64,000 bases of DNA from Comamonadaceae bacterium OS-1 (GTDB taxonomy: Bacteria > Pseudomonadota > Gammaproteobacteria > Burkholderiales > Burkholderiaceae_C), in the NCBI GenBank assembly GCA_027923965.1, contig AP026969.1, positions 2,976,001 through 3,040,000 of the forward strand, written 5' to 3'. The stretch's first letter is position 1, and each line of letters starts with the position of its first letter. The translations under genes were made by a program, and so were the position numbers. This document shows positions 32,337 through 57,235 of this stretch, one piece after another. Below the pieces are notes generated by a model, which searched no databases, was not told the DNA's origin, and saw only the letters and a list, made by a program, of their open reading frames with translations.

Positions 32337-32344
32337 CTCCAAGC

Positions 32345-32993: not shown

Positions 32994-33010
32994 AAATAAT
33001 TTCCCCAAAC

Positions 33011-33033: not shown

Positions 33034-33063
33034 ACACCTATACCGATCACTTGCACCATTGCC

Positions 33064-35602: not shown

Positions 35603-35612
35603 ATAAATTCCC

Positions 35613-37163: not shown

Positions 37164-37204
37164 GGAGGTGTACGCGGAGGAGTGAAATGGTGACGTGGGT
37201 GATA

Positions 37205-37218
37205 GTGACCTAGGTCAC
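37205..37218. promoter_or_regulatory. MarR-type operator before the exporter gene
   Basis: GTGACCTAGGTCAC is a perfect 14-base palindrome between the marR-like gene and the exporter. It shares the core ACCTAGGT with the palindrome before the regulator (37752-37763). Confidence 0.75.
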
Positions 37219-37244
37219 CATATGTGTAAAAAAAGGGGCTGCCG

Positions 37245-37739: not shown

Positions 37740-37751
37740 GGCCGCGAATGA

Positions 37752-37763
37752 TAACCTAGGTTA
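37752..37763. promoter_or_regulatory. MarR-type operator before the regulator gene
   Basis: TAACCTAGGTTA is a perfect 12-base palindrome 13 bases upstream of the regulator ATG, with the same ACCTAGGT core as the operator at 37205-37218. Confidence 0.75.
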
Positions 37764-37784
37764 CCAATTTATGCAGTGCTATGT

Positions 37785-37826
37785 AAAACGTAGCTTCTTA
37801 CGCTTACCATATAAGCACAGAATGCC
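37785..37826. repeat. Dispersed palindromic repeat, copy 7
   Basis: CGTAGCTTCTTACGCTTACC followed by ATATAAGCACAGAATGCC is a diverged copy of the repeat core in the divergent gap between the marR-like gene and the four-gene cluster. Confidence 0.65.
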
Positions 37827-37916
37827 GATTTCATGCCCAAACATGGTCCTACCCACCAGGCCCTGCATTCCTCCACAAAACTAAGGATGTCTGTCCCACC
37901 CCGCCGGGCGGGGGAA

Positions 37917-37945
37917 TTGACGCAGGCCGCCACCCCGCCTAACCT
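37917..37945 (+). promoter_or_regulatory. Sigma-70-type promoter of the four-gene giant-protein operon
   Basis: TTGACG (37917-37922), a 17-base spacer, and TAACCT (37940-37945) give a good -35/-10 pair. Start would be near 37952, leaving a leader of about 40 bases that carries a GCCTGT (37953-37958) / ACAGGC (37967-37972) hairpin and a GAAGGAAA ribosome site before ATG 37993. A CCCCGC/GCGGGG stem lies just upstream of the -35 box. Confidence 0.65.
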
Positions 37946-37992
37946 CGCGTGAGCCTGTCAGACTGCACAGGCTCATCCGTGAAGGAAACCGC

Positions 37993-40900
37993 ATGGCTGG
38001 CACCGCTGACACCGTTTTTTTGCGCGCATTTCTGTGGCTGCAAGGCAGCGTGGCCGCGCTGCAAACCGACATCCAGCCGCCCGCACTGGCCACACCGCTG
38101 GCCGACGCGCTGCGCACCCGGCTCGGGCTGGCGCTGGACCAGACGGCAGCCACCATCAACCCCGACACTTTCCACGCCAGCAATGCCGAAGCCCAGTCGC
38201 TGGCTACAGCGGCCATGGTGGTGGGCGAAACGCTGGCGGCGCTGAAGACCGTGGGCGAGCTGCTGGCCCACCTGGGCGACGGCGGCGTGGGGCTGGGGGA
38301 CTTGTCCAAGGTGATCCAGCAGATCAACCGCATCACCTCGGCCAGCCCCGGCAAACCGCCCAGCGCGTATTCGATTGCCAAGCTGCTGCTGATCGTCAGC
38401 GGCGATGCCGACCAGCCCGCCAGCGACCCGCCCGCCCAACTGCTGGTCTACCGCCTGATGGGCAAAACTGCCGTCAACCCGCCCACACCCGCCGCGTTTG
38501 CCGAGGCGCAAATGACCCTGGGCCTGGTGGTGATGGCCATTGGCACCCTGCTGGACCGCGCCTTTGCCGCGCCCAACCTGGACGATGCCAAGGGCTGGCT
38601 GGTGCCCCGCGATGTGGCGATCACCCCGCCGGACCAGAAGGCATCGCGGGCCTTCCATCTGGCTGGGGAGGGGGCGACCAGCCTGGACCTGCTGCTGGGC
38701 TATGACACCGCGCCGCCCAAGCTGTACGCCGAGCTGGACGCAACGCTTGCATCCAGCACCGGGGCCGAACACGACTTTGCGCTGGCGCTCAAGGCCATCG
38801 GCAAAGTCACGCTGCAAATCGATCTGCCCGCACTCACCGTCCCGCTGCCCCCCCTGCCCCGCCCCGTACTCTCGGGTGCGTCAGCCATCAGCCTGCTGTT
38901 CAGCCGCAACAAACCCCTGGTGCTGGGCGACAAGGCCCAGACCCACTTCACCATCGGCAAGATGACCGGCGGCTTCACGCTGGACAACCTGCAGCCCAAG
39001 GTGGAGTTTGACCTGGCCGAGAGCGTGCTGACGCTCAAGGTGGGCGACGACCCCTTCCTGGGCGCGGTGCTGGGCGATGCGATCGAGGTGGCGCTGACCT
39101 TCGGGCTCATCGCCGACATGGCGGGCGGCCTGCGGCTCAAAGACGGCACCGGCCTCAAGGCCACCATCCCGCTGGAACGCATCCCCAACAGCCCGGTGCA
39201 GATTCCTTTCCTGAGCTTCGAGCTGAAAAAGGCCGACAACCTGGACAAGATCGAGGTCGAGCTGTCGGGCTCGTTCCAGGTGGAGATCGGGCCGTTCTCC
39301 GGCTCCATCGACCGGCTGGGCACCCTGCTCAAGCTGGACGACCTGCTGGCTGGCATCACCGCGCCGCGCTTTGACCTGAAGCCACCCTCGGGCGCAGGCC
39401 TGGCCATCGATGCGGGCATCGTCAAAGGCGGCGGCTTTTTGCTGTTCGACCCCGACCGGGGCGAGTACGGCGGCATTCTGGACATCCGCATCGGCGTGAT
39501 CGGGGTCAAGGCGATTGGCCTGCTCAGCACCAAGAACCCCGGCGGCTGGTCGCTGCTGCTGATCATCACCGCGCAGTTGCCGCCCATCCAGCTGGGCTTT
39601 GGCTTCACCCTCACCGGCATTGGTGGGCTGCTGGGCGTGCAGCACACGGTGAGTGTGGACACGCTGTCGCAGGGCCTGACCAGTGGCTCCCTGGATAGTT
39701 TCTTGTTTCCACAGAACCCGGTGGCCAATGCGCCGCAGATCATCAACCAGCTGCGCACCATCTTCCCGTTCAAGGCCGGGGGCTTTGTCATCGGGCCGAT
39801 GCTGGAGCTGGGCTGGGGCACGCCCAGCCTGGTGATTGCGCGGGTGGGCGTGCTCATCGAAGCCAGCCAGATCGTGTTTGCAGGCCAGGTGATCGTGCAG
39901 CTACCGCCGCTGGTGGACAAGTCGCTGGCCATCCTGCGGCTGCAGGTGGACTTTGCGGGCGGCATTGTGTTCGACCCGCTGAAAATCTGGTTCGACGGCG
40001 TGCTGCGCGACTCGCGGGTGGTGTTCATCGCGCTGACCGGGCAGTTTGCGTTCCGCGCGATTTTTGGCGACCGGCCCAGCTTTTTGATCAGCGCAGGCGG
40101 CTTCCACCCGCGCTTTACCGACCTGCCGCCCGGCCTGCCCAGCCCGTTCCAGCGCATCGGTGCGGACCTGTCGATCGGCCCGGTGGGCATGCAGTTCCGG
40201 GGCTACTTTGCCGTGACCTCGGCCACAGTGCAGACCGGCTCATCCATGCGCATCTGGGCCGACATCGGCATCGCCAGCATCGAAGGCGGGTTCGAGTTCG
40301 ATGCCATCGTCTACATCGTGCCGCGCTTCCGCTTCGAGGTGGACCTGCACGTCTGGGCCAGCGTGGAGGTGTTTGACCTGGACTTTGCCAGCATCGACAT
40401 CTACGGCCTGTTTGCCGGGCCGGGCCGCTGGCACATCGTGGGTAAGGCCGAAATCCACACACCCTGGCCGCTGCCCGACTTCAGCTTCCACGTGGATGAG
40501 AGCTGGGGCGAAGACCGCGCCACCACGGTGCGCAAGCTGTCGCTGGCCACCGAGCTCAAAACCGAGCTGCAAAAGCCTGGCAACTGGTCGGCCCAGTTAC
40601 CGCAGGAGGGCGATGCCTTCGCCAGTTTCGCCAAGCTGCCCGCCAGTGCCGGGATTCTGGCCCACCCCAATGCCGTGCTGCAGTTTGTGCAAAAGCGCAT
40701 GCCGCTGAACAAGCAGCTGACCAAGCTGGGCACCGATGGCATTGAAGGCAGCGGCGACCAGTTGCAAATCAGCATTGGCGAGATCCGCTTTGGCGCAGAG
40801 ACCACGCCGGTGGACAAAAAGCTCAACGACCAGTTCTCGGCAGCGCAGTTCCTGGACCTGAACGAGGACGAAACCTTCAGCCGCCCGTCCTTCGACAGCT

Positions 40901-41307
40901 TCGAGGCAGGCTTCCAGGTGGGCCAGCACAAGTACCAGTTTGGCCGCACCGCCAAGGACCTGTTCGACTACGAAGAGTGCAACCTGTCCACCCCCAAGAC
41001 CACCATGAGCTCCAGCCTGGCACGCGGCGCCCTGGTGGAAGTGGGCCACGCCCGCTGGGCCACCTCGCTGGGCGCGGCAGCGCGCTCGGAGCTGCGCCGC
41101 CCGGCCCGGCTGCAGCCCGCCACCGAGGTCAAGATCGCCGTCAACCCGGCCCCGCTGCACACCATAGACAGCGCCAGTGGCACCCTGGCCAGCACGCCCC
41201 TGGCCGGGGCCGCTGCGCAGTCGTACTGGGCCGCGCACGACCTGGTGGGGGCCAGCAGCAAGGCGCTGCAGATCGTCGAATCGTTTGAAACCGTACAGGC
41301 GTTTTAG
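37993..41307 (+). CDS. Giant protein A: DUF6603-like protein of unknown function
   Basis: 1,104 residues, no signal peptide or convincing membrane helix. Residues 1-240 are mostly helical and Ala/Leu-rich. Residues about 240-870 are strikingly rich in alternating polar/non-polar beta-strand segments and Gly turns (GFGFTLTGIGGLLGVQ, GGFVIGPMLELGWGTP, IVFAGQVIVQLPPLV, WHIVGKAEIHTPWPLPDFSFHVDESWG); this resembles the DUF6603 family, an assignment from memory. Residues 870-1104 form a separate end domain containing SAAQFLDLNEDETFSRPSFDSFEAG. It is first in a four-gene operon with a strong ribosome site; the next gene starts 9 bases on. Function unknown. Confidence 0.75.
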   Translation: MAGTADTVFLRAFLWLQGSVAALQTDIQPPALATPLADALRTRLGLALDQTAATINPDTFHASNAEAQSLATAAMVVGETLAALKTVGELLAHLGDGGVGLGDLSKVIQQINRITSASPGKPPSAYSIAKLLLIVSGDADQPASDPPAQLLVYRLMGKTAVNPPTPAAFAEAQMTLGLVVMAIGTLLDRAFAAPNLDDAKGWLVPRDVAITPPDQKASRAFHLAGEGATSLDLLLGYDTAPPKLYAELDATLASSTGAEHDFALALKAIGKVTLQIDLPALTVPLPPLPRPVLSGASAISLLFSRNKPLVLGDKAQTHFTIGKMTGGFTLDNLQPKVEFDLAESVLTLKVGDDPFLGAVLGDAIEVALTFGLIADMAGGLRLKDGTGLKATIPLERIPNSPVQIPFLSFELKKADNLDKIEVELSGSFQVEIGPFSGSIDRLGTLLKLDDLLAGITAPRFDLKPPSGAGLAIDAGIVKGGGFLLFDPDRGEYGGILDIRIGVIGVKAIGLLSTKNPGGWSLLLIITAQLPPIQLGFGFTLTGIGGLLGVQHTVSVDTLSQGLTSGSLDSFLFPQNPVANAPQIINQLRTIFPFKAGGFVIGPMLELGWGTPSLVIARVGVLIEASQIVFAGQVIVQLPPLVDKSLAILRLQVDFAGGIVFDPLKIWFDGVLRDSRVVFIALTGQFAFRAIFGDRPSFLISAGGFHPRFTDLPPGLPSPFQRIGADLSIGPVGMQFRGYFAVTSATVQTGSSMRIWADIGIASIEGGFEFDAIVYIVPRFRFEVDLHVWASVEVFDLDFASIDIYGLFAGPGRWHIVGKAEIHTPWPLPDFSFHVDESWGEDRATTVRKLSLATELKTELQKPGNWSAQLPQEGDAFASFAKLPASAGILAHPNAVLQFVQKRMPLNKQLTKLGTDGIEGSGDQLQISIGEIRFGAETTPVDKKLNDQFSAAQFLDLNEDETFSRPSFDSFEAGFQVGQHKYQFGRTAKDLFDYEECNLSTPKTTMSSSLARGALVEVGHARWATSLGAAARSELRRPARLQPATEVKIAVNPAPLHTIDSASGTLASTPLAGAAAQSYWAAHDLVGASSKALQIVESFETVQAF

Positions 41308-41316
41308 GACATTCCC

Positions 41317-44300
41317 ATGGCCACCTCCACCCAAGTTGCCTACCAGTTCATGCCCTGGGTCCGCCGGGGCCTGAGCGTGGCCCTGACCGCCAGCGACACC
41401 CTGGGCGTAGGCCCGCTGCTCCCGGCCCGCGCCACCGCCCAGGTCCACGTGGCCCTGGCCGCACCGCACGCGGGCACGCCGATCGACCCGCTGGCGCTGC
41501 AACTGCACGGCCCTGGCGATGTGGTGGCCATCGACACCCGGCTGGTGCTGCGCACCGACCCCAAGCCCCACGCGCGCAACTTCGAGCCCAACTACCTGGC
41601 CATCGTGGACTTCGACCCGCCCGATTTCCCGTGGATGCTGACCCCCGCCCTGGCCCATGCCGACGACCGCCTGCGCCCCTGGCTGGTGCTGCTGGTGCTG
41701 GAAAAGTCCAAGGTGGGCACGCCCAAGATGCCGCCCCAGGGCCCGCTGCCCACGGTGCGCATTGCCGCCGCCGACGTGGCCACCGAGCTGCCGCCGCTGG
41801 GTGAATCCTGGTCCTGGGCGCACGCGCAGGTGGTCAGCCACCGGGACGATGCGCCCGGCATCCAAAGCGACCTGCAAGCCGACCCGACCCGCAACGCCTC
41901 TCGCCTGGTCAGCCCGCGCCGCCTGCTGCCGCTGACCGACTACGTGGCCTGTGTCGTGCCCGCGTTCGAGCCGGGGCGCTTGCGTGGCCTGGGTCTGGCC
42001 GAAGCCCAGCCTGCGGCCATGGCCACCCTGGGCCCGGCCTGGGACGTACAGCAGGCCAGCGATGTGCTGCTGCCGGTGTACTACCACTGGGAGTTTTCCA
42101 CCGGCCCGGGCGGCGACTTTGAATCGCTGGCGCGGCGGCTCAAAACCCCCAGCGCCTACGCAGGCAACGCCGAGGTGGCCGCCCTGCTCAGCCGCGTAGG
42201 CACCGCGCCCATGGGCGTGGACCCGGTGCTGACCGGCTTTGTGCAGGGTGCGGTGGCCACCATGGAAGGCGCGCTGGTGCCCATCCGCTACACCCCTGGC
42301 AGCGCGCCCGACTCCACACAGGCCGACAGCCTGGCGCTGATCGTCAACACCCCGCAGGCCAACGTGGCCGACCCGGTGGCCGACGGCCCTACCAATGCCC
42401 TGGGGCGGCGTATCGAGGTCAAGCCGCAGATGGTCGGCGGCTGGCATGCCAAGAAGCACCAGGTGGCGGTGGGCGAGGCCGCGACCCATTGGGTGGCCGG
42501 GCTGAACCTGAACCCGCGCTACCGCGGTGCCGCAGGCTATGGGGCCGAGGTGGTGCGGCAAAACCAGGAGATCTTCATGGACGCGGCCTGGGGCCAGATT
42601 GGCCGCATCCAGGAGGCCGAAATGCGCTTCAACCTGACCCGGCTGGCCATCGAGGCGCAGCGGGCCCTGAAGGCCAAGCATTTCGACACCCTACCGCCCG
42701 AGCGGCTGCTGCAGGTGATGGGGCCCGCCCTGGGCCGCATCGAGGCACGGGCGGTGAACGGCACGGCCTACCGCATCGGCAGTGCGGCCGGTTCGGTGGG
42801 CGGACAGATCGCCCGCACCAGCCTGCCCAGCGCCCTCACCGACACGGCCATGCGCCGCGCCACCACGCCGCAACGCCGCAGCCTGCGCATGGCCGCCCGG
42901 CTCAACGCCGACCTGCCCGCGCTGGCCGGGCAAACCCAGCGCTACCTGGGGGCCATGGCCGCCGCCACCCAGCGCAGCGCGGCCTTTACCGTGAACGCGT
43001 TCCTGCCCGATGGCATCGTCAGCAGCAAGGCGCTCGACAACATGAACCTGGACGGTGCTGCCGACCGCCTGCTGGACCTGCGCAGCCTGGGGCTGGGCCA
43101 GACCACGGTAGGCCAGGCGCGCGCACTGCAAACCGCAGGCAAAGGGGCCGAGATGGCGTTGGCCAAACGCGGCATGCCCGGGCTGCAGATCCGCGCAGGC
43201 CAGCACCTGGGCGTGTTCACCGACCTGCATGTGGAGCGCTTCAGCCAGTTGGCCAGCGCCATGCCCACAGTGCAGTCCACCGACTGGGGCGTGGTGGCCA
43301 GCACCATCGAATCGCTGGGCCACCGGGGGGTGGAAGGGGTGCTGGTCGAAGCCCGCGCCGCCACCGACAACCAGCAGGCCAGCCTGCAGTTCAGCACCAT
43401 GAAGCTGGATGCCCGCAGCGGCAACCTGCGCCTGAACCGCGCCCTGGTGCGCGAGCTCGACAGCGCCCGGCGAGACATCACGCCCGTGGCCCGCAAGGGC
43501 GCAGCGACCCGCGCCTTGACCGGCACCACCTTGGGCAGCCTGCGCATTGCCGACAGCCGCAAGTACAGCACCGCGGGCGTGTTTGCCGCGCTGCCCGTCA
43601 ACGCGGTGCAGTCGGTGGTGGCCGATGCCGAGAAGCCGCACTTCAGCGTCAATACCGGGTTTGAAATCGTCGGCTCGCTGGCCGCCCCGCCCGACCTGGC
43701 CGTGGCCACACTGACCCTGCCGCCCGCCCTGCGCCAGCGCGCCATACTGAACCGCTATGCCGTGGCCACCCGCGGCAGCCAGCAGCTGTGGACCGATGGT
43801 TTCGTGCAAAGCCAGGTGCAGGTGCAGCCGGTGGACTTCAGCCTGGTGGCCGCCCGCAGCGCCATCACCGTGGCCACCCAGCCCGACACCACGCTGCGCG
43901 CGCGGCTGGCCAGCACGGTGTCGGTCGCGCACCTGGCCGCCACCGAGGGCAATGCCTTTGTATCGGCCTATTTGTCCACCACCGATGCCTTTGCCCGCCA
44001 GCGCTTCATGGTGCCTGCACTGTTCGACCGGGTGATGGCCTGGCCCACCCTGCCCGAGCCGCTGTACCAACGCCTGTCCAGCTGGAACAAGAACGCCTTC
44101 ATGCCGGGGGTGGACGGCATTCCGCAAGACCTGGTGATGCTGGCCAAGGTGAACCAGCACTTCATCGACAGCTTCATGGCCGGGGCCAACTGCGAGATGA
44201 ACCGCGAACTGCTGTGGCGCGGCTTTCCCACCGATCTGCGCGGCACCCCGTTCCAGCGGTTCTGGGACCGCAGCAGCATCGGCCCCGCGCCCACCTACAC

Positions 44301-44976
44301 CTACACCCCGCTGGACGACATCCAGCCCATCCACCAGTGGGGCGCGCAGCCGCTGGGCCTGCGCAGCGATGCCATCAGCCCGTTCATCCGGCGCACCAAC
44401 GGCGAGCGCATCAACCCGGTGGTGCTGCTGGTGCGTGGCCAGTTGCTGCGCCGCTACCCCAACACCGCCGTCTACGCCTGGAAGAAAACGCCGGGGGCCG
44501 ACACCCTGCTCAAAGACGCGCAAGGCCTGCCGCCCGACGGTGCGCTGGCCACGCCGCGCTTCAGCGGCACGATTGGCGACGACATCAGCTTCTTTGGCTT
44601 TGACATCGACGACGAAAAAGCCGCCGACTGGTGCTTTGTGCTGGAGGAGCAAATGACCGAACCGCGTTTCGGCTTCGATGTGGACGAGCCCGCCCCCGGC
44701 CAGGCCCGCACCGGCCCACCCCGGCGCAACGCCTTGCGCACGGCCATGGCCACACCGCTGCACAGCCAGTACAACGCCTACAAGGCCCTGTCGTGGAGCA
44801 ACCTGGCCGTGCCCCCCGGCGGCTTTGTCACGCTGGCCGGGCTGCGCCAGGCACCGCCCCCGGCATTTGCGAGTTTCCCCATGCTGACGGCCCAGGCCAA
44901 TGCCGCGGAGATCGCCCGCGCCCTGCTGCAACAACCGTTCCGTGCCTACTTTGTGGGCGCAGACCTGATCACCTGA
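41317..44976 (+). CDS. Giant protein B: conserved protein of unknown function
   Basis: 1,219 residues, no signal peptide or membrane helix. The N-terminus contains compact aromatic motifs (YQFMPWVRRGLSVAL, FEPNYLAIVDFDPPDFPWML, LRPWLVLLVLEKSKVG, GESWSWAHAQVV). The middle (about 420-780) is Ala/Arg-rich and probably helical. The C-terminal third has FQRFWDRSSIG, DDIQPIHQWG, PVVLLVRGQLLRRYPNTAVYAW, GDDISFFGFDID and CFVLEEQMTEPRFGFD, which look like a conserved domain seen in other uncharacterised proteins. The ribosome site AGGA overlaps the stop of gene A. I do not recognise a function. Confidence 0.8.
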   Translation: MATSTQVAYQFMPWVRRGLSVALTASDTLGVGPLLPARATAQVHVALAAPHAGTPIDPLALQLHGPGDVVAIDTRLVLRTDPKPHARNFEPNYLAIVDFDPPDFPWMLTPALAHADDRLRPWLVLLVLEKSKVGTPKMPPQGPLPTVRIAAADVATELPPLGESWSWAHAQVVSHRDDAPGIQSDLQADPTRNASRLVSPRRLLPLTDYVACVVPAFEPGRLRGLGLAEAQPAAMATLGPAWDVQQASDVLLPVYYHWEFSTGPGGDFESLARRLKTPSAYAGNAEVAALLSRVGTAPMGVDPVLTGFVQGAVATMEGALVPIRYTPGSAPDSTQADSLALIVNTPQANVADPVADGPTNALGRRIEVKPQMVGGWHAKKHQVAVGEAATHWVAGLNLNPRYRGAAGYGAEVVRQNQEIFMDAAWGQIGRIQEAEMRFNLTRLAIEAQRALKAKHFDTLPPERLLQVMGPALGRIEARAVNGTAYRIGSAAGSVGGQIARTSLPSALTDTAMRRATTPQRRSLRMAARLNADLPALAGQTQRYLGAMAAATQRSAAFTVNAFLPDGIVSSKALDNMNLDGAADRLLDLRSLGLGQTTVGQARALQTAGKGAEMALAKRGMPGLQIRAGQHLGVFTDLHVERFSQLASAMPTVQSTDWGVVASTIESLGHRGVEGVLVEARAATDNQQASLQFSTMKLDARSGNLRLNRALVRELDSARRDITPVARKGAATRALTGTTLGSLRIADSRKYSTAGVFAALPVNAVQSVVADAEKPHFSVNTGFEIVGSLAAPPDLAVATLTLPPALRQRAILNRYAVATRGSQQLWTDGFVQSQVQVQPVDFSLVAARSAITVATQPDTTLRARLASTVSVAHLAATEGNAFVSAYLSTTDAFARQRFMVPALFDRVMAWPTLPEPLYQRLSSWNKNAFMPGVDGIPQDLVMLAKVNQHFIDSFMAGANCEMNRELLWRGFPTDLRGTPFQRFWDRSSIGPAPTYTYTPLDDIQPIHQWGAQPLGLRSDAISPFIRRTNGERINPVVLLVRGQLLRRYPNTAVYAWKKTPGADTLLKDAQGLPPDGALATPRFSGTIGDDISFFGFDIDDEKAADWCFVLEEQMTEPRFGFDVDEPAPGQARTGPPRRNALRTAMATPLHSQYNAYKALSWSNLAVPPGGFVTLAGLRQAPPPAFASFPMLTAQANAAEIARALLQQPFRAYFVGADLIT

Positions 44977-44986
44977 GGAAGCATCC

Positions 44987-47900
44987 ATGGCCGCACTGAA
45001 CCTGAATCTGGACGCGCTGCAGGCCGCCCGCGCCGAGCTGGTGCGCCAGCGCGATGCCCAGCGCAGCGCCACCCTGGCCTGGCAGCAGGCCCAGGCCACA
45101 CTCGACACCCTGGCCCGCACGGGTGCCAGCGCCGATGCCCTGCAAGAGCAGGCCAAGATCGCCGCCGATCTGCGCCGCGCCGCCCAATCGGCGCTGCGAG
45201 GCACGGCAGAGCGCCTGCAAGGCATCCAGAATCTGTCGCAAGACCTGCTGGGCCACCTGCAACTGCCGCAGGACAACCCGGCCCCGCTGGTCGAGGCGCT
45301 GGATGCCGCCCACCCGGTCGCCCTGCTGCCAGTGGCGGTGCAGACACGCTACACAGCCGATGCCAGTACGCTGATGGTGCGCATCTACCCCGATGCCATC
45401 CACAGCTTTGGCCACGAGCCAGGCCTGAGCGAGGCCGAAACCGCCGAGGGCAAGCGCTACTGGGCTGAGCGCTTTGCCACCCCCAGCGACACCGAGTCGC
45501 CCTGGCTGCAGATCGCCCGCATCTACACCCCGGCCCGCGCCGCCTGGATTGTGCGCAGCACCACGCCCACCAACTTCGACCAGCTGGGTCGCCGCATCGA
45601 CGATGCCGACGCGGTGCTGGTCAGCCCTGAATTTGACGACGCGGCAATTCCCCAGGCCAGCCGGGTCGGCGCCACCGTCTACGCTACCGCGCTGCCCGAC
45701 CGCTTTGTGGTGGTGGGCCAAAGCCGGGGCCGCGAGGTGTTCCGCGTCTGGGGCCAGCCGGTGGCCGATCTGCTACCCATGACCCCGGCGTTCGACCCGC
45801 TTACCGCCACCGACGAGGCCGAGGCCGAGAAGGACCCGTTTGGCGGCGACCGGGCCTGGCTGGTGGACTACCCCGCCGCCGTGAAGGCCGGCATGGCCAT
45901 CAGCGTCACCGCCAACGACATGCGCAACGGGGCCAGCCTGAATGACCCCATCGACCGCCTGGTGGTGCTGGGCGTGGACTGGACGCAGACGCCCGACTCC
46001 GCCGCCACCCTGCTGGCCAGCCTGCTCGACAACCACCAGCACAGCGCCGGGCTCAAGCTGGTGGCCCAGGGCACCCCTACCAACAACACCAGCAGCACCC
46101 GCGCCGCCTTTGCCGCTAACGGGGCCGACCTGCTGGCCGACATGGACCCGCAAACCACCAGCCAGCGCACGGCAGACGGGGCCTTCGAGCTGGCCACCGC
46201 CGGGGGCCGCCTGCAAGGCCTGCTGGGCCTGCCGGTGGAGGTGTTCGACGCAGGCACCGTCCCCGGTGCCACGCTGCGCGAATCGGCCAGCGCAGGCCAC
46301 ATGGTCAACGCGCTGTGGAGCGCCACCCTGGGCTACACCCTGCGCTACTTCTGGAACCCGCGCGATACCGCCCAGGCGCTGATCAGCGACGCGGCGGTGG
46401 AGCAGCTGCGCGCCTGGTCGGTGCGTTACCTGCGCCCCGGCGGCCCGCTGTCCACCCTGCGCGTGGGCCAGCAGCCCTACGGCATCCTGCCCATCTGCGC
46501 GCGCAATTTCGTGCCCAGCCCGCGTTCCGCATTGGAGCGCGAACTCACCGAGGCGCTGGACTGGCTGCGCCCGCACTGGGACAGCGTGGTCTACAAGGTA
46601 CCCACGCTGCGCAACCCCAGCGCCGAGAGCCTGCACCAGGTGCTGTCCATGCAGCCCTGGGCCTGCGCCAAGCGCTACAACGAAGTCATAGGCCCGGCCA
46701 CCACCCAGAACAACCCGGCCTTTGATGATCTGGTGCGGTTCCAGGGCGACTTTTTGCGCCGCCTGATGGGCCAGTTGCTCAGCGGCAAGAGCGCCGCCGT
46801 GCAGGTGCCCTACCTGTCGCTGTGCGCCATGCGGCCCAAGCAGAATTCGCTGGATGCCGTGCCGTGGGTGCAGCGCGACCCCGACCGGTTGCCGCTCGAA
46901 CGCGAGGGCGCGGCCCTGCTGCAGCCCAACTACATTGCCACCCTGCACAACCACCTGGGCGACCCGGCCAGCGACCTGCGCGCGCGCATCGTGCCCATGC
47001 AAAACGGCAACTCCCTGCTGGAAGCCATGCTGGCCTTTGCCGCCGACGAAGAAATACTCAAGTCCGGCCACGCGCTGTTCTACGAGCATGTGCAAAACAG
47101 CGCCGCCGTCAGCCCGCTGGTGAAAAGCCAGTTCCAGCGCATGGGCCTGGCCGAGTACATCGGCGTGGCTACCAGCACCCTGGTGGGCGACCAGGTGGAG
47201 GTCAACACCGCCCGCGCCCTGATGGGCGTGCGGCTGGAAGGCACCACCGCCAACCGCTCCGTCGAGGGTCATATCGCCCAGTACCTGGGCCAGTCGGCCA
47301 CCCTGTGGCCCGAGCAAATGCAAAACATCGCCAGCTTCAAGGACAGCCTGGCGTTCTTGCAGGACTGCAACGCAGGCGAGCTGCAGCAGGCGTTTCGTAC
47401 CACGCTGGACCTGTACGCCCACCGGCTGGATGCCTGGATCACCGCGCTGGCCACGCACCGGCTCGACACCCTGCGCGCCGCCCGGCCCCAGGGCCTGCAC
47501 CTGGGCGCGTTTGGCGTGGTGCAAGACCTGCTGCCCGATGCCGTGCGCCGCAGGCAGCTGCCGCCCGGCCAGAGCCAGGCACTGGACAGCCTGGGCTACA
47601 TCCATGCGCCGTCGGTGCAGCAGGCCACTGCCGCCGCCGTGCTGCGCAGCGGCTTTCTGGCCAACGGCCAGGCGGCGGGCCAGGCGTTTGACATCGACCT
47701 GCGCTCCCAGCGTGTGCAACACGCCAAGCACCTGCTGGAGGGCATTGCCAACGGCCAATCCATGGCCGCCCTGCTGGGCTACCGCTTCGAGCGCGGCCTG
47801 ACCCACAGCGCGGGCCAGGCGCTGGCCCAGTACATCCTGGAGTGCCGCCAGGCCTACCCGCTGCGCCCCACCGGAGCGACGCCACAAGACGAAGCCAGCG

Positions 47901-49966
47901 AGAGCATTGCCGCCCGCGACGTAGTGGACGGCGTGCGCCTGATGGATGCCTACCGCACGGCCCGCGCTGCGGGCACCGCCTTCAAGGTGCCCGGGGTGCC
48001 CGACGCGCTGCTGCAGCCCGGTGCCGCCATCGCCGTGCTGATCGACGACCTGCTGGAGCAGATGGACGCGGTATCCGACCTGCTGGTCTCCGAGAGCGTG
48101 TACCAGATGGTCGGCGGCAACCTGGACGGTGCCGGAGCCGCCATGATGACCCTGGACAAACAGACCCGCCCGCCCGAGCCCCGCGTGGCCGACACCCCGC
48201 ACAGCACCCGCGGCTACACCCAGCGCCTGGTGGTGGCGCTGGAGTCCGCCGACCCTGGCCCCTGGGCGGTGGAGGGCGAACTGATCTCCCGCATGGAGCC
48301 GCGCCTGAACGCCTGGCTGGCCCGGCTGCTGGGCGACCCCAGCCGCTACCAGTTCAGCGCCCAGGTGTTCAGCCCGCCCACCGAACCCAACGGCGACTGG
48401 GTCGTCACCGACACCATGTTGACGGCCCGTATTGCCGAGCTGGGTCTGTCGCCGCTGGCGCTGGTACTGCACAGCGAAGCCCAGCAGGGCGCAGGCCAGA
48501 GCGGCGTGCAAGAGCGCCTGGGGCAGTTGATGGGCGACAAACTGCGGGCGCAACTGGGTGCTGCCGCAGACGGCCTGGCCGTGGTGCTGCAGGCCGATGC
48601 CCCCGAGGCGGAGCAGATCGGCTTGGTCGCCTTTGAGTCGCTGGCCTGGGTGCTGCGCCGCCTGCTGGCCAAAACCCGCCCCCTGCGCCGCATGGACATG
48701 GTGCAGGCCCGCGACGGCGTGGAGAGCGCCGCCACCCAGGATGACGGCGAAGCCGCTGGTGTCGATCTGGTCGAACTGGAACTGCGCTGCCAGGATGCCG
48801 AACGCCAAGCCGACGCGGTGCTGGCCCTGCTGGCCGATGCCAGTGCTGCCGCACCCGAAGACCTGGACACGCTGGACCCCGTTGCCCCCGCCACCGCCGC
48901 CCTGCTGGTCCAAGCCCAAACCGCCCTGGCCGCCGCCTACGCCCTGGGTTGGCGCAGTGCCGCAGGCCATACCCCGGTGGCCGCAGGCGACGGCCAGGGC
49001 CAGCCGCTGGCCGATGACGACACCGCAGCCCGTGCCGTGGGCCGTGCCCGCGCCCTGCTGCTGGAAATCGGGGGCCGCACCACGGCAGCCCGCAATGCGC
49101 CGGTATCCGACGGGCGCGGCGGCCAGTTGCAAGCCCTGCTGGACCGCATCCACGCGGTGATGGGCAAAGACTTCCCGGTGCTGCCGCTGTTCACCCTGGG
49201 CGCATTTGCCGCCGACGCCGCCGGCAGCCTGGGCGACCGCGACATGCTGCTGGGCAAGGCCGCGCTGGGCAACGACGACACGGCCGTGGCGGGCTGGCTG
49301 CCCAAGCTGGCCTGCGTACGCGAAGCCAGCGCCCTGCTGTCCGACACCCTGCTGGCGGCCGAGGCGCTGGGCGAAGACAGCGGCTACCTGGACGACCCGC
49401 TGGACTTCCAGCTGCTACAGTTTCCGCGCAACCCTCTCAACCATTGGGCCGCCCTGCCCCCTGCGCCCAAGCAAAACCTGCAAGACCTGCGCGGTGTGGT
49501 GGCCATTGCGGCCCACGCCCCCGGCGGGCTGCGGGCGCTGGACGGTGCCACCACGCTGTCCGGCCTGTTTGTCGACGAGTGGATGGAAACCATCCCGTCA
49601 GATACCGAAACCACCGGCGTGGGCTTCCACTTCGACGCGCCCGGGGCCCGCCCGCCACAGAGCATTCTGCTGGCTGTGCCCGCCGACCCCGCCGCCGACC
49701 ACTGGACGCTGGACAGCCTGCTGGCCACGGTGAACGAGGCCATGGCCCTGGCCCAGTTGCGCGCCGTGCGCCCGCAGGATCTGGAAGGCCTGGGCCTGCT
49801 GCTGCCGGGCATCTTTTTGTCGAACAACTTCAAGCAGGACGTGCCGTCCATCGATTTCGCCACCCTGGTCAGCAAAAACCTCTATGCCCTGCGTGCCGCC
49901 AGCGGTGTGGCCAACGGCAAAGCCACCATGGCCGCAGGCACGGCCCAGTTCGCCACCAAATCCTGA
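44987..49966 (+). CDS. Giant protein C: conserved protein of unknown function
   Basis: 1,659 residues, the largest of the cluster, soluble. Residues about 1-90 form an Ala/Gln/Leu-rich coiled coil (LDALQAARAELVRQRDAQRS). Then PVALLPVAVQTRYTADASTL, LMVRIYPDAIHSFGHEPGLSEAE, RFVVVGQSRGREVFRVWGQP and VDWTQTPDSAATLLASLLDN, followed by KLVAQGTPTNNTSSTRAAF, YTLRYFWNPRDTAQAL and LRVGQQPYGILPI. The C-terminus contains FVDEWMETIPSDTETTGVGF and a LLLPGIFLSNNF strand. These spaced motifs look conserved rather than repetitive, yet match no enzyme I know. The start lies 10 bases after gene B with AGGAAG overlapping the stop. Part of one operon. Confidence 0.8.
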   Translation: MAALNLNLDALQAARAELVRQRDAQRSATLAWQQAQATLDTLARTGASADALQEQAKIAADLRRAAQSALRGTAERLQGIQNLSQDLLGHLQLPQDNPAPLVEALDAAHPVALLPVAVQTRYTADASTLMVRIYPDAIHSFGHEPGLSEAETAEGKRYWAERFATPSDTESPWLQIARIYTPARAAWIVRSTTPTNFDQLGRRIDDADAVLVSPEFDDAAIPQASRVGATVYATALPDRFVVVGQSRGREVFRVWGQPVADLLPMTPAFDPLTATDEAEAEKDPFGGDRAWLVDYPAAVKAGMAISVTANDMRNGASLNDPIDRLVVLGVDWTQTPDSAATLLASLLDNHQHSAGLKLVAQGTPTNNTSSTRAAFAANGADLLADMDPQTTSQRTADGAFELATAGGRLQGLLGLPVEVFDAGTVPGATLRESASAGHMVNALWSATLGYTLRYFWNPRDTAQALISDAAVEQLRAWSVRYLRPGGPLSTLRVGQQPYGILPICARNFVPSPRSALERELTEALDWLRPHWDSVVYKVPTLRNPSAESLHQVLSMQPWACAKRYNEVIGPATTQNNPAFDDLVRFQGDFLRRLMGQLLSGKSAAVQVPYLSLCAMRPKQNSLDAVPWVQRDPDRLPLEREGAALLQPNYIATLHNHLGDPASDLRARIVPMQNGNSLLEAMLAFAADEEILKSGHALFYEHVQNSAAVSPLVKSQFQRMGLAEYIGVATSTLVGDQVEVNTARALMGVRLEGTTANRSVEGHIAQYLGQSATLWPEQMQNIASFKDSLAFLQDCNAGELQQAFRTTLDLYAHRLDAWITALATHRLDTLRAARPQGLHLGAFGVVQDLLPDAVRRRQLPPGQSQALDSLGYIHAPSVQQATAAAVLRSGFLANGQAAGQAFDIDLRSQRVQHAKHLLEGIANGQSMAALLGYRFERGLTHSAGQALAQYILECRQAYPLRPTGATPQDEASESIAARDVVDGVRLMDAYRTARAAGTAFKVPGVPDALLQPGAAIAVLIDDLLEQMDAVSDLLVSESVYQMVGGNLDGAGAAMMTLDKQTRPPEPRVADTPHSTRGYTQRLVVALESADPGPWAVEGELISRMEPRLNAWLARLLGDPSRYQFSAQVFSPPTEPNGDWVVTDTMLTARIAELGLSPLALVLHSEAQQGAGQSGVQERLGQLMGDKLRAQLGAAADGLAVVLQADAPEAEQIGLVAFESLAWVLRRLLAKTRPLRRMDMVQARDGVESAATQDDGEAAGVDLVELELRCQDAERQADAVLALLADASAAAPEDLDTLDPVAPATAALLVQAQTALAAAYALGWRSAAGHTPVAAGDGQGQPLADDDTAARAVGRARALLLEIGGRTTAARNAPVSDGRGGQLQALLDRIHAVMGKDFPVLPLFTLGAFAADAAGSLGDRDMLLGKAALGNDDTAVAGWLPKLACVREASALLSDTLLAAEALGEDSGYLDDPLDFQLLQFPRNPLNHWAALPPAPKQNLQDLRGVVAIAAHAPGGLRALDGATTLSGLFVDEWMETIPSDTETTGVGFHFDAPGARPPQSILLAVPADPAADHWTLDSLLATVNEAMALAQLRAVRPQDLEGLGLLLPGIFLSNNFKQDVPSIDFATLVSKNLYALRAASGVANGKATMAAGTAQFATKS

Positions 49967-49975
49967 GGAATTGCC

Positions 49976-51910
49976 ATGCCCATCTCCCTCACCGCCGCCC
50001 GCATCTCGGTGGTCTCGGCGCTGATTGCCCAGCCCGAGCCCTCGCACACCACCTGGTCGCGGCTGGAGCCGCTGCCCACCAGCGACGACGTGGCCGACAG
50101 CCTGCAGGCCCGCATCGCCGACCCGCTGTGGATGCTGGCGCGGCAATGGCAGTTCAACGAATTCCAGGGCGAGGACGCGGGCAGCCCCATCGCTGCCGCG
50201 CTGGCCGTGGCGGGCCTGCCGGTCAGCAGTCTGCTGCCCAGCGCCGACGCACTGGACGGCATCGCCCTGCCGCCCGGAGCCGCGCCGCTGGAGGCGCTGG
50301 TGGAGCATGAACAGGTGTTCCAGATCCACCCCAAGCTCAATGCCCAGGCCGGCCAGCAACTGATGCGCAGCCTGCGCGCCGCCGGGCTGGGCACCCTGGC
50401 CCAGGCGCTGCGCCAGCAATTTCCCGCGCCGTTGCCCAAGCCCTTTGATCCCGCCGCCGACAACGCCGGGTTTGTGTGGCACACCCTGCTGGACCAGCGG
50501 GCCATCCACGCCCAGGCACTGGCCCAGGCCGTCCGCGCCCTGCCCGACCGTGCGGCGGAAGAGGTATTTGGCAGCATCGTGGGAGCCAGCATCGCGCAGA
50601 TGGATGCCTTTCTGGCGCTGCTGCACCACTGGGTGGACTGGCTGGCGGAATTCGCGCTGGACGGTGCCGCGCCCGGGGCCAGCCCCTACTGGAAGCCCGA
50701 ACGGCTGGAGTACAGCTTTGCCCTGGGGGCCCAGGGCGATGGCGCACCGGTGCGCCTGGTGGCCGACGAATACACCGACGGGCGGCTGGACTGGCACAGC
50801 TTCACCCTGGGCGCGGCGCACGCCGAGGCAGGCGGGCCGGACCAGACCGTGCCCTACCCGACCCAGCCGCCCAAACACCTGCCCCTGCCCACCACCGCCC
50901 GCTACCCCGGCATGCCCGCCGACCGCTACTGGGAATTCGAGGATGGCCGCGTCAACTTCGGCATGCTGGGCGCTGCCAAAAGCGACCTGGCCCGGCTGGC
51001 CGTGCTGGAGTACGCGCTGGTGTTCAGCAACGACTGGTTCACCCTGCCGCTGACCCTGCCGACCAACGCGCTGTACACGATTCAACAGCTGGATGTGCGC
51101 GACAACTTTGGCATCACCCTGGCCATCCCCCCGGCGGGCTGGAACATGTTCGAACTCAGCCTGCAGCCCGGCGCACCGCAGCGGCTGGACAACACGCTCT
51201 ACCTCTGTCCCGCCCTGCACAGCCTGGAAGGCCCACCGCTGGAACACGTGATGCTGGTGCGTGACGAGATGGCCAACATGGTCTGGGGCATTGAGAAGCG
51301 CGTGCAGGGCAGCTCCGGCGAGCCCATCGACCGCAAGTTCGAAAGCACCCGCCTGTCCACCACACAGACCCTGCGGCCCACCGTGGTTGCCGACGCGCCG
51401 CCCGCCAGCGCCGGTGCCCTGTTGCAGTACACGCTACAAACCCCTGTGGCCGCACACTGGGTGCCGTTTTTGCCGGTCAAAAAGCAGGGTGCCAACGTGC
51501 TGAACTGGAGCATCCAGCTACAGCGCGGCGTGGTCACCCACCACTACCAGACCACGCCCGCACGCATGGCCGAGCCGGTCAACGCCAGCTACAACGCCTT
51601 CATCCAGCGCCTGCGCGACAACGCCTTTGTGGAAACCACCGGCGCGCTGGGCACCGAGGAGCACCAGCTCGAAGGCTTCATGTTCCACCCGCGCGGCAGC
51701 CTGCTGCGCCAAGACCCGAACGTGGATGTCAAAACCGACTTCCTGCGCATCGCCGAAGAGGAAGTCCCCCGCGACGGCATCAGCCTGCAGCGCCGCTTCA
51801 ACTACGCCCGCGACAGCCAAGGCCGGGCGCTGCTGTGGATTGGGAGGAGCAAGTCGGTGGGACGGGGGGAAGGGTCTAGCGGGTTGAAGTTTGATGTGGT
51901 GAAGGCGTAG
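49976..51910 (+). CDS. Giant-cluster protein D: conserved protein of unknown function
   Basis: 644 residues, soluble. The N-terminal block TTWSRLEPLPTSDDVADSLQ and ARIADPLWMLARQWQFNEFQ, then GEDAGSPIAAALAVAG is highly distinctive and aromatic. A middle region contains WEFEDGRVNFGMLGAAKSDL and ALVFSNDWFTLPLTLPTNAL; a late region has VMLVRDEMANMVWGIEKRVQ and HWVPFLPVKKQG, and the end carries VPRDGISLQRRFNYARDSQG. None is a known catalytic motif. Gene D follows gene C after 9 bases with GAGGAA at the stop. The final 60 bases turn purine-rich. It converges on the broken hepT gene 25 bases further on. Confidence 0.8.
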   Translation: MPISLTAARISVVSALIAQPEPSHTTWSRLEPLPTSDDVADSLQARIADPLWMLARQWQFNEFQGEDAGSPIAAALAVAGLPVSSLLPSADALDGIALPPGAAPLEALVEHEQVFQIHPKLNAQAGQQLMRSLRAAGLGTLAQALRQQFPAPLPKPFDPAADNAGFVWHTLLDQRAIHAQALAQAVRALPDRAAEEVFGSIVGASIAQMDAFLALLHHWVDWLAEFALDGAAPGASPYWKPERLEYSFALGAQGDGAPVRLVADEYTDGRLDWHSFTLGAAHAEAGGPDQTVPYPTQPPKHLPLPTTARYPGMPADRYWEFEDGRVNFGMLGAAKSDLARLAVLEYALVFSNDWFTLPLTLPTNALYTIQQLDVRDNFGITLAIPPAGWNMFELSLQPGAPQRLDNTLYLCPALHSLEGPPLEHVMLVRDEMANMVWGIEKRVQGSSGEPIDRKFESTRLSTTQTLRPTVVADAPPASAGALLQYTLQTPVAAHWVPFLPVKKQGANVLNWSIQLQRGVVTHHYQTTPARMAEPVNASYNAFIQRLRDNAFVETTGALGTEEHQLEGFMFHPRGSLLRQDPNVDVKTDFLRIAEEEVPRDGISLQRRFNYARDSQGRALLWIGRSKSVGRGEGSSGLKFDVVKA

Positions 51911-51934
51911 GCCTGCGGCGCACGGCTTGCATCC

Positions 51935-52303
51935 TTAAGATTCAGGTGGCAACTGCAGCAGTGCCTGGCCTACCAGCGCATGCAGTCCAGCAAGATCGTT
52001 TTGCACGGTCTTCCAGACGACCTCCAGGTCTACCGTAAAGTATCCGTGCGCTATCGCATTGCGCATTTGGTAGGCAAAAGCCAATGGCAACTCGGGGTGC
52101 GCCGCCGCAAATGCTGGATGCTGCAAAGCGATATTGCGGCTGGCTTAGCCGAGATTTTCAAAGTTGCGAATCACCGCATCCTGGACCATTTCGTTCGCTA
52201 AAAAGGCCACCTCGTCCATACCCTGGGTGTAGCGGTCGATACGCTCGATCGCTTCCAGAATATGGCCCAGATAGTCGTGGAGCCTGGGCTTCTCAGCGCT
52301 CAT
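51935..52303 (-). pseudogene. HepT-family ribonuclease toxin interrupted by an in-frame stop codon
   Basis: Conceptual 122-residue DUF86/HepT protein. It starts at ATG 52303, overlapping the MntA-like stop (ATGA), and reads LHDYLGHILEAIERIDRYTQ, then VQDAVIRNFENLG. At codon 53 (52145-52147) there is TAA where the family has Glu (GAG/GAA); after it the same frame resumes as ASRNIALQHPAF, AYQMRNAIAHGYFTVDLEVVW, to a stop at 51935. The RX4HXY active motif (RNAIAHGY) is thus intact but lies beyond the nonsense codon, so the normal product lacks it. The downstream half could only be made by reinitiation. One-base loss of function is inferred. Confidence 0.88.
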
Positions 52304-52590
52304 ATGGGAACGGCCTCGGCCAGCACAGCGGCGCGAAATTTGGTCGGCAATGCTTTGGGCGTGAGCACATCCACGGGCACCCCTAGCAGCTCCAGCAATT
52401 CATGGCGGATGGCACCAATGTCAAACAAGGTGGTGTCCTGGCTGGGGTCAATCAGGATATCGAGATCGCTACCTTCAGTGTCGTCGCCGTGCACCACCGA
52501 TCCGAACACGCGCGGGTTGCTGGCCCGGTGGGACTCTACGATTTGGCGGATGCGTCCCCGGTGGGTCTGCAAAGCGTCCGATGGTTTCAT
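52300..52590 (-). CDS. MntA-like minimal nucleotidyltransferase antitoxin
   Basis: A 96-residue nucleotidyltransferase-fold protein. The GSX10DXD signature is exact: Gly30-Ser31 in RVFGSVVHGDDTEGSDLDILID, with Asp42 and Asp44. In HepT/MntA systems this antitoxin adenylylates the HepT toxin near its active site. ATG 52590 (MKPSDA) is chosen because AGGA lies at normal distance; ATG 52599 would leave no spacing. The partner toxin downstream is interrupted by a stop codon, so the antitoxin may be under no selection. Confidence 0.87.
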   Translation of the reverse strand: MKPSDALQTHRGRIRQIVESHRASNPRVFGSVVHGDDTEGSDLDILIDPSQDTTLFDIGAIRHELLELLGVPVDVLTPKALPTKFRAAVLAEAVPI

Positions 52591-52612
52591 GTTGAACATC
52601 CTGAATGGGATC

Positions 52613-52672
52613 GGACTTACGCTGCGCCCCTGTGTCGCCCTTCGGGCTTACAGGGGGAACTTGCGTAAGTCC
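52613..52672. repeat. Nested inverted-repeat element of about 60 bases (MITE- or RNA-hairpin-like)
   Basis: GGACTTACGC (52613-52622) pairs exactly with GCGTAAGTCC (52663-52672); inside, CCCCTGT (52627-52633) pairs with ACAGGGG (52650-52656) and GCCC (52637-52640) with GGGC (52644-52647). Terminal GGACTTACGC-type ends resemble insertion-sequence terminal repeats, so this could be a minimal non-autonomous element or IS scar just upstream of mntA. No clear target-site duplication is visible. Confidence 0.6.
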
Positions 52673-52773
52673 TGTGGGAGTTCCTGATTACAACACCGAA
52701 CCACCGTAGCCCTGTTACCAGTCGGGTTGAAGACGTAGATGCTATGCAATTTGCAGTAAATTTTGCGAGAGAA

Positions 52774-52829
52774 ACAAGCTGCTACCGGCCATTCCATAAG
52801 CGCAAGAAGCTACTAATTGAATAGCAAAA
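52774..52829. repeat. Dispersed palindromic repeat, copy 8
   Basis: GCTGCTACCGGCCATTCC followed by ATAAGCGCAAGAAGCTAC and the tail TAATTGAATAGCAAAATC. It sits at the 3' end of the HupE/UreJ-like gene, whose stop (TCA on the + strand) begins at 52830. Confidence 0.8.
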
Positions 52830-53945
52830 TCACACCACCCGCAGCCAAAACCAGTACGCCGCCAGTGCCACCAGCAGCCAGGAGCCCCCGCGCACCACCG
52901 CCCTGCCGTACCAGGGCTGGCGCACCACCACCTGGGACAGCAGCACCCAGGCGGTGACGGCGCTGAGTTGGCCGGCTTCCACGCCCAGGTTGAAACCGGC
53001 CAGCGCCCAGGGCAGCAGGCCTGCGGGGGCGGCGGCCTCGATCAACAGGCCGGCGAAGCCGTAGCCGTGGACCAGGCCGAACACCAGGGCCAGGCGCTCG
53101 GGGCGCAGTGCCCGCACGGGGTAGATGTTGAGCAGCGCGGTGAAGGCGATGGACGCGGCGATGGCGGGCTCGACCCAGCGAGGCGAGGCCTCGGTCCAGC
53201 CGAAGGTGGCCAGCGCCAGGGTGATGGAATGGCCCACGGTGAAGGCGGTGATGGTGCGCAGCAGCGACCACCAGGGGCTGCGGCCTTCCACCATGGCGGC
53301 CGCCCGGCCCAGGCGCAGTTGCAGCGGCAGCACCAGGGCCAGCAGAAAGGCCATGTGGTCGTAGCCCTGCAGCAGGTGGTGCATGCCCAGTTGCAGGTAG
53401 TCCCACACCGTACCGGCAATGCCGCGTGGGGGCGCGGCCACGGCCTGGCGCAGTGCCAGGGGTACGGCCTGCTGGGGCGCGGCGGTGGCCAGGAAGTCAT
53501 GGCCGTCGAGGTGGCCGGTAACGATCAGGCGGTGGTTGCTGTCCTCCAACTTGAACAAGGTGTAGCGCAGACCCAAGGCCGTGCCGGGTGGGCAGGCCGC
53601 CGGGCTGGTAGCGCGCAGGTAGGCACCGTCGCTGCGGGCTTCCAGGCCGTCATAGGTCCAGTGCAGCGTGCAGCCGGGGGTAGGGTTGGCGCTGTCCAGC
53701 CCGGTGTGGCTTTGCAGGAGGGCCAGGGCGGCAGGGGTGGCGGCCTGCACTTCGGCCCAGGTCACCTGGCCGTCGGCATTGGCATCCACCGGAATGAGCA
53801 GGTCCAGGTCTTTCAGGGCCACGGAAAGTTGCAAGGTGAGCGCACTGCCCTGCTGGCGCACGTCCAGGTAGGCATCGCTGCCTTTGTGGGCCCAGGCGGG
53901 GGCGCACAACAAGGCGGCGCAGAGGATGGCGAGCAGGCGCTTCAT
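52830..53945 (-). CDS. HupE/UreJ-family membrane protein with N-terminal EF-hand-like segment
   Basis: A 371-residue protein. A signal peptide ends near CAPAWAHKG; an exported domain (about 20-180) contains an EF-hand-like loop DANADGQVTWAEV and Cys pairs; the C-terminal half has about seven membrane segments with the HupE/UreJ-type motifs GMHHLLQGYDHMAFLLALVL, FTVGHSITLALATFG and VFGLVHGYGFAG. His residues in these helices are the presumed metal path. HupE/UreJ proteins are linked to nickel or cobalt supply, but this larger class is uncharacterised. ATG 53945 overlaps the TPR gene stop (ATGA). Confidence 0.83.
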   Translation of the reverse strand: MKRLLAILCAALLCAPAWAHKGSDAYLDVRQQGSALTLQLSVALKDLDLLIPVDANADGQVTWAEVQAATPAALALLQSHTGLDSANPTPGCTLHWTYDGLEARSDGAYLRATSPAACPPGTALGLRYTLFKLEDSNHRLIVTGHLDGHDFLATAAPQQAVPLALRQAVAAPPRGIAGTVWDYLQLGMHHLLQGYDHMAFLLALVLPLQLRLGRAAAMVEGRSPWWSLLRTITAFTVGHSITLALATFGWTEASPRWVEPAIAASIAFTALLNIYPVRALRPERLALVFGLVHGYGFAGLLIEAAAPAGLLPWALAGFNLGVEAGQLSAVTAWVLLSQVVVRQPWYGRAVVRGGSWLLVALAAYWFWLRVV

Positions 53946-57095: not shown

Positions 57096-57119
57096 GGTGA
57101 TCTCCTGGGGGTCATGTCC

Positions 57120-57131
57120 ATTGGCGCCAAT
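57120..57131. promoter_or_regulatory. Palindrome upstream of the DUF4331 operon
   Basis: ATTGGCGCCAAT is a perfect 12-base palindrome 25 bases before the DUF4331 ATG; a related ATTGGCAC half-site follows at 57139-57146. Candidate operator; regulator unknown. Confidence 0.45.
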
Positions 57132-57235
57132 AAACACTATTGGCACTCTGGATACGCAGGCGGCTTTACCGTGGATTCACAAACGTGAACTATTTCTCAA
57201 AATAGGCCAGGGGCAAGCAACCACCCGCTTCTACT

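Follow-up and report, generated by a model that had tools for sequence, protein, structure and literature searches.

What do the four giant genes of a compact operon in Comamonadaceae bacterium OS-1 build, and where does their product go? The genes, called A to D here, lie in a stretch of 64,000 nucleotides (contig AP026969.1 of assembly GCA_027923965.1, positions 2,976,001 to 3,040,000 of the forward strand), which is termed the window; coordinates are counted from its first letter, and L and G numbers are our own handles for loci and genomes. A reading made from the letters and open reading frames (ORFs) of the window, below the sequence-only reading, had taken A-D for a candidate undescribed four-part system. 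Comparison with relatives bears this out: A-D, about 4,600 residues in total, are a well-supported, shared evolutionary unit which extends across phyla and over the border between bacteria and archaea, with three subunits that fall outside the family libraries searched. If they indeed form one assembly, a whole molecular machine is undescribed in the literature searched, and the question of what A-D build and where the product goes can be put in testable form.

The evidence for a unit comes from 76 loci gathered by one scan with two patterns of C, in which A-D were mapped with profile hidden Markov models (HMMs); the set is biased to relatives that keep these patterns and contains near-identical strains (L055 and L056, L031 and L059). 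The order A-B-C-D on one strand is found in 53 of the 76 loci, and a further 21, truncated by a contig end, keep a contiguous part of this order. The remaining two are rearranged, to C-D-B-A in Flavilitoribacter (L062) and to C-D-A, with B not found, in a gammaproteobacterial metagenome-assembled genome (MAG; L080). According to the record titles, the loci belong to Burkholderiales, Nitrosospira, alphaproteobacterial MAGs, Nitrospira, Acidobacteria, Bacteroidota, Actinomycetota (Micromonospora, Streptomyces, Solirubrobacter and others), Neobacillus, Anaerolinea, Polyangium, haloarchaea and others. Genes at unannotated loci were called by codon usage, and some calls are wrong in the GC-rich loci L023, L044, L057, L065 and L082, where frames are fused or missed. 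The four genes also share their history. Pairwise tree distances among A-D correlate at 0.80-0.92, with a maximum of 0.21 in 1000 label permutations, and the gene trees, drawn without support values, share 21-25 of 32 splits; this comparison used 35 of 55 four-gene sets, the other 20 being dropped because a best HMM segment was shorter than 60% of the median length. In the tree of C, an actinomycete (L079) is placed next to proteobacteria, and Polyangium (L034) next to actinomycetes, a pattern suggestive of horizontal transfer.

Comparison of the flanks shows that the operon behaves as a unit also in closely related DNA. In the congener G804, the flanks matching window positions 37770 and 52837 lie 158 bp apart, against 15,066 here, so that the segment present in the window is replaced as a whole. 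In G807, DNA matching 31241-35610 lies next to the operon (37778-51908, 92% identity), and the MarR and MFS genes, which stand divergently upstream of A in the window, are absent there. Because of the linkage, the joint inheritance and the gain or loss as a single unit, it is very likely that A-D together make up one obligate assembly with four subunits, which would be made in the cytoplasm without leader peptides.

The layout bears out most of the points made by the sequence-only reading. Four same-strand ORFs are separated by only 9, 10 and 9 nucleotides (A-B, B-C and C-D), and an AGGA motif ends 6-7 nucleotides before each start codon, overlapping the preceding stop in the case of B, C and D (Table 1). 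Long antisense ORFs also occur within the operon; the forward frames are favoured because of their homologues and their G+C content at third codon positions (0.88-0.89, with 0.85-0.88 in four flanking genes). A crude hydropathy test detected no strong hydrophobic segment in any of the four proteins (peak 19-residue means of 1.83, 1.33, 1.45 and 1.73 for A to D) and no signal peptide at the N-terminus of A, which is not hydrophobic (13-residue mean 1.32), as had been claimed for signal peptides and membrane helices. The good promoter proposed before the first gene was not recovered, a consensus scan of 37200-52900 yielding 0 sigma-70-like sites; Rfam gave zero matches across 37000-53000.

Table 1. 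Positions of the operon, its AGGA motifs and flanking features in the window
Feature	Position	Strand	Size or basis
Gene A	37993..41307	+	1104 aa; ORF calls and Pfam match
Gene B	41317..44976	+	1219 aa; ORF calls and homologues
Gene C	44987..49966	+	1659 aa; ORF calls and homologues
Gene D	49976..51910	+	644 aa; ORF calls and homologues
AGGA 5' of A	37983..37986	+	sequence
AGGA 5' of B, overlapping the stop of A	41306..41309	+	sequence (TAGGA)
AGGA 5' of C, overlapping the stop of B	44976..44979	+	sequence (TGAGGA)
AGGA 5' of D, overlapping the stop of C	49966..49969	+	sequence (TGAGGA)
Segment with the operon and HepT/MntA-like ORFs (158 bp in its place in congener G804, locus L171)	37771..52836		genome comparison
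Three short ORFs 3' of D	51935..52599	-	
HepT-like part, first ORF	51935..52126	-	
HepT-like part, second ORF	52145..52303	-	
DUF4331 gene	55458..57146	-	E 2e-140

Database searches assign a family to one of the four proteins. A is a clear member of Pfam PF20248 (DUF6603; residues 401-959, E 8e-114, 381.4 bits against a cut-off of 27), a family without assigned function and the sole Pfam family in A at E<=1; at this threshold no lipoprotein N-terminal, chorein or AsmA domain was found in it. B, C and D have zero matches in Pfam, NCBIfam and PHROGs at E<=1. The earlier claim that none of the proteins carries a known motif thus holds for B, C and D and is not quite right for A, since A is a DUF6603 protein. 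At E<=0.001, same-frame homologues number at least 924 for B, 1355 for C and 1554 for D among about 8000 scored candidates per search; most of the best 120 in each search span nearly the full query, and none of these best 120 bears a functional name. No paper on DUF6603 or PF20248 was found in the library searched, and wider term searches yielded nothing on the operon among the entries listed. With the operon, DUF6603 gains a set of partners, B-C-D.

The sequence-only reading had named a clear structural match to a known machine as a result that would speak against a new system, and no such match appeared for C (by sequence) or for D (by sequence and model). A sequence search of the PDB with A-D returned chance-level matches (best E 0.04), and the model of D (mean pLDDT, the predicted local distance difference test, 76) had no significant Foldseek match, the best E being 0.22 in the PDB and 0.08 among viral models. 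Across phyla, Trp, Pro, Gly, Arg, Asp and Glu make up most of the invariant residues of B, C and D (alignments of 29, 30 and 26 sequences). No His, Cys or Ser is strictly invariant in these alignments, although some His and Ser residues reach a conservation of at least 90%, namely H350, H873, S876 and S907 of C and H155 in the B protein of L031. An enzymatic role of B, C or D was considered and set aside because no family match and no invariant His, Cys or Ser were found; the pattern looks structural, which falls short of proof. B and C would be large scaffold proteins and D the last subunit, provided with a C-terminal binding module in some lineages. A stretch of about 100 residues of C, from residue 922, is possibly common to D (probability 67%), and profile comparisons of B with C and of B with D revealed no internal homology.

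The structure model of A provides a hint of what the assembly might touch. Residues 217-840 were modelled as consecutive strands, many of which have one hydrophobic face when the sequence pattern is read on the model (strands of fewer than six residues, four in all, were excluded), which suggests a long antiparallel beta-sheet that is hydrophobic on one side. In a Foldseek search the best match was apoB-100, followed by sheets of porin, LptD and FimD, all of them weak. The likeness to apoB and to the large lipid-transfer or bridge-like (RBG) proteins would consist of this kind of sheet; however, no sequence relation to A was found, the TM-scores are low, and A is a bacterial and archaeal protein that usually has B-D beside it. 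Based on the model and its strand pattern, A may engage lipid or membrane through the sheet. One reading of this is that A-D coat or carry a hydrophobic body inside the cell (a lipid, polyester or polyprenoid store), with A as an apoB-like belt and B-D as a soluble shell. It would account for apoB-100 as the top match and the many strands with a hydrophobic face, as well as for the rarity of leaders and the four-gene form of the window, which has no cargo gene. Polyester granules occur in many of these taxonomic groups. Nevertheless, the neighbours scanned include no recognisable gene for granules, polyester synthase or lipid storage, and the peptidoglycan-binding, M23, lectin and lamin-tail modules that adjoin or are fused to the operon proteins of relatives would be odd for an internal store, so we regard such a coat as unlikely.

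The same sheet could instead belong to an envelope or surface structure of the producer itself, such as an export or adhesion apparatus with A in or along the membrane and the other subunits anchored. The resemblance to porin, LptD and FimD and the lamin-tail, kelch, WD40 and lectin modules of relatives fit this reading, whereas the leader statistics do not. Of the 328 core ORFs, 4 have a hydrophobic N-terminal segment, as have 2 of 82 adjacent proteins, against 73 of the 441 other ORFs at these loci; membrane-helix-like segments, too, are rarer in the core ORFs (7 of 328) than in the other ORFs (47 of 441). In showing no signal peptide by the crude test, A differs from outer-membrane beta-barrels. 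Moreover, the same set of genes is present in haloarchaea, Gram-positives and Gram-negatives despite their differing envelopes, and a structure of the producer's own envelope appears quite improbable.

What the assembly might do is suggested by the genes beside it in relatives. Proteins of at least 100 residues were collected if their genes are co-directional with the A-D run and either lie inside it or form a chain to it in which no gap exceeds 60 bp; this gave 82 proteins in 50 loci (loci of the second operon type described below were excluded). Among the first 25 of the 83 Pfam families found in them, a PhoD-like phosphatase is present in 11 adjacent proteins, each of which keeps GDQIYAD, PG_binding_1 in 10, DUF7800 in 6, PG_binding_3 and peptidase M64 in 3 each, and M23, M48, M56, B_lectin, DUF2515 and Penicillinase_R in 2 each; others of these 25, including caspase, kelch, WD40 and alpha/beta hydrolase, occur once. 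Single neighbours scanned alone include beta-lactamase-like, NAL1/trypsin-like, Het-C, S74 chaperone, SLT and papain-like C70 proteins. A peptidoglycan-binding protein is encoded 5' of A in Streptomyces longwoodensis, and caspase-domain and C70 genes stand directly 3' of D in G690, which belongs to the same order as OS-1 and favours a cargo role for the neighbours. D itself ends in a lamin tail domain in Halalkalicoccus and in kelch repeats in Polyangium, and the D proteins of two further haloarchaeal plasmids are annotated as 'lamin tail domain-containing' in their records. In actinomycetes, mostly Micromonospora, a conserved protein of 568-625 aa follows D (L063, L064, L065, L068, L069 and L071); its copy in L068 has zero Pfam matches.

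The peptidoglycan-, lectin- and surface-type domains that many relatives have among the neighbours and on some D proteins suggest action at or outside a cell envelope. The sequence-only reading had proposed a cytoplasmic machine; the apparent lack of leaders agrees with it, and confinement to the cytoplasm is made doubtful by these domains. The interpretation we favour, tentatively and with a probability somewhat short of even, is that A-D form an obligate leaderless assembly which is exported or freed by lysis as a particle and acts on cell envelopes or surfaces with swappable cargo. In many lineages it would take up a lineage-specific leaderless protein encoded beside the operon, candidates being the PhoD-like phosphatase, peptidoglycan-binding or M23/SLT proteins, a peptidase, a lectin and a propeller protein, and it would work like known toxin- or enzyme-delivery particles while being unrelated to them. 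The envelope or surface action with variable cargo is the least certain step, as it derives from neighbours chiefly in other lineages. A bolder form of this interpretation, which we consider doubtful, is that a lipid-engaging DUF6603 sheet, two giant scaffolds, a tip protein D with interchangeable binding modules and exchangeable leaderless enzymes constitute a new class of envelope- or surface-acting particle in bacteria and archaea, unrelated to phage tails, Tc toxins and known secretion systems. The swappable neighbours, with their phosphatase, peptidoglycan and lectin modules, offer handles on function.

Several observations weigh against the particle. No export or lysis gene was recognised, and neither targets nor immunity genes were identified. 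The model of A is of moderate quality (mean pLDDT 70, predicted template modelling score 0.48), its Foldseek matches have low TM-scores (0.12 by query for apoB), and the VIA alignments, with root-mean-square deviations of 6.5-12.7 Å, do not separate a closed barrel from an open groove or a belt. For the adjacent proteins, the deficit of membrane-helix-like segments against the other ORFs (3 of 82 and 47 of 441) falls short of significance (P 0.06). Adjacent same-strand genes need not act together, and the adjacency rule also catches an unrelated BlaI/BlaR-type pair in the near-identical L055 and L056. In the window, no gene of the same direction lies within 60 bp of the operon, and an adjacent gene upstream of A is likewise lacking in 11 loci, most of them nearer relatives of the window's operon (L006, L007, L008, L011, L012, L014, L015, L016, L020, L021 and L027); the cargo role of the neighbours consequently rests on other lineages. 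In one of these loci, L012, an alpha/beta hydrolase-like gene lies 51 bp after D.

The enzymes among the neighbours can also be read as parts of an intracellular conflict system, for phage defence or cell suicide, in which a four-protein sensor would license a swappable enzyme. Phosphatase, caspase-like, papain-like, trypsin-like and metallo-beta-lactamase proteins are candidates for such an enzyme, and the caspase (C14), papain-like (C70), NAL1/trypsin-like, Het-C and PhoD-like neighbours, the rare leaders and the patchy gain or loss as a unit would be expected of it. On the other hand, A-D match no PADLOC model (0 of 4 at E<=0.1), Pfam recognised no ATPase or nucleic-acid-sensing domain in them, and peptidoglycan-binding, M23 and lectin proteins are out of place among its neighbours, which makes a conflict system improbable.

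A further candidate is provided by the extracellular contractile injection systems (eCIS), to which the patchy and rare A-D loci with their leaderless variable neighbours in relatives bear an analogy, no closer relation being implied. As stated in PMC8213781, eCIS are present in 1.9% of bacteria and their operons mostly comprise 15-28 tail-derived genes, whereas A-D are four genes, none of which is a recognised tail protein. If A-D were divergent baseplate or fibre proteins of unrecognised phage-tail or contractile injection relatives, their size, leaderless variable neighbours and patchy spread would resemble eCIS loci as described there; in addition, one neighbour has a Peptidase_S74 chaperone domain, and a sheath gene exists somewhere in 8 of 14 D-positive genomes. 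However, none of the four proteins matches PHROGs, the viral-model search with D gave nothing significant, and a pattern scan of IMG/VR viral contigs found no relative of D. The contractile sheath PF04984 has 0 matches in the window's own genome (G000) and was not found in 5 others of the 14, so a general dependence on a sheath was rejected, and a tail origin of A-D seems highly improbable. Phage origin of the operon was likewise rejected on the PHROG and IMG/VR results, B and D being found in one of 50,697 phage records. This record (MT835531, L083), a faecal scaffold filed as 'Bacteriophage sp.', marked 'UNVERIFIED' and without annotation, carries part of A plus B, C and D and is possibly bacterial DNA.

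In spite of their linkage, the subunits are not entirely inseparable. The sequence-only reading had treated homologues that occur apart as evidence against a single system. B was found in 14 of 15 genomes with a match to D, the exception, G450, having a 50-residue D fragment only; by contrast, A and a B relative in split form are also found where C and D are not. DUF6603 is present in 6 of 399 genomes of the order sample (5 above the cut-off) and in 13 of 121 genomes of a sample centred on Micromonospora. A occurs in all 7 D-positive genomes of the latter and in G000, G579 and G690 of the former, and without D in 3 genomes of the order sample and 6 of the Micromonospora-centred one. The surroundings of A were taken for 8 of these 9 genomes (the weak match G576 was left out) and define a second operon type, A-E-F-G (L139-L146), in which the DUF6603 protein, of 1054-3426 aa, is followed by E in 7 of 8 loci; the contig of L145 is too short for neighbours. 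By profile, E aligns with the N-terminal part of B (hhalign probability 98%, E 2e-13, 244 columns) and finds no match in D. Protein F follows E in three loci and weakly matches the C-terminal part of B (probability 6%, E 0.007), and G, a giant of about 1200 aa found in six loci, matches none of B, C and D by profile. The second type thus shares the A family and a B-like E with the A-D operon and differs from it in that no C or D was found at its loci; DUF6603 proteins are accordingly subunits of a four-gene unit in one case and members of another operon in the other. Subtilase, Laminin_G, propeller and, weakly (E 0.005), metallo-beta-lactamase proteins were seen as neighbours of the second type.

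B and C seem to be composed of separable domains, as judged from the E/F split, from plasmid p_3 of Rhizobium lusitanum (L084), where two genes overlapping by 4 nt stand in place of B and likewise of C, and from a Halobellus plasmid (L176) with four ORFs where B is expected. Further 3' at the Rhizobium locus are a CVNH gene, some 2 kb from D, and GH25 lysozymes, some 10-12 kb from it.

The operon is rare. In the phylum sample, a single genome of 299, the window's own, has a match to C. D turned up in 4 genomes out of 399 in the order sample (counting the window's own; one match is a 50-residue fragment), in 7 out of 121 in the order sampled around a Micromonospora genome (counting that genome) and in 4 out of 8 in the genus (again counting the window's own). 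Among 72,556 plasmid records, 14 contain D, six from Streptomyces and four haloarchaeal. A Natrinema plasmid (G300) carries a second, diverged A-B-C-D copy (L154) on the same replicon.

Downstream of D, on the opposite strand, the window contains three short ORFs, which by eye look like a HepT/MntA toxin-antitoxin pair on account of the motifs RxxxxH and GSxxxG...SDxD, with the HepT-like part spread over two separate ORFs. They are followed by HupE/UreJ-like, TPR and DUF4331 genes, which adjoin one another on the reverse strand.

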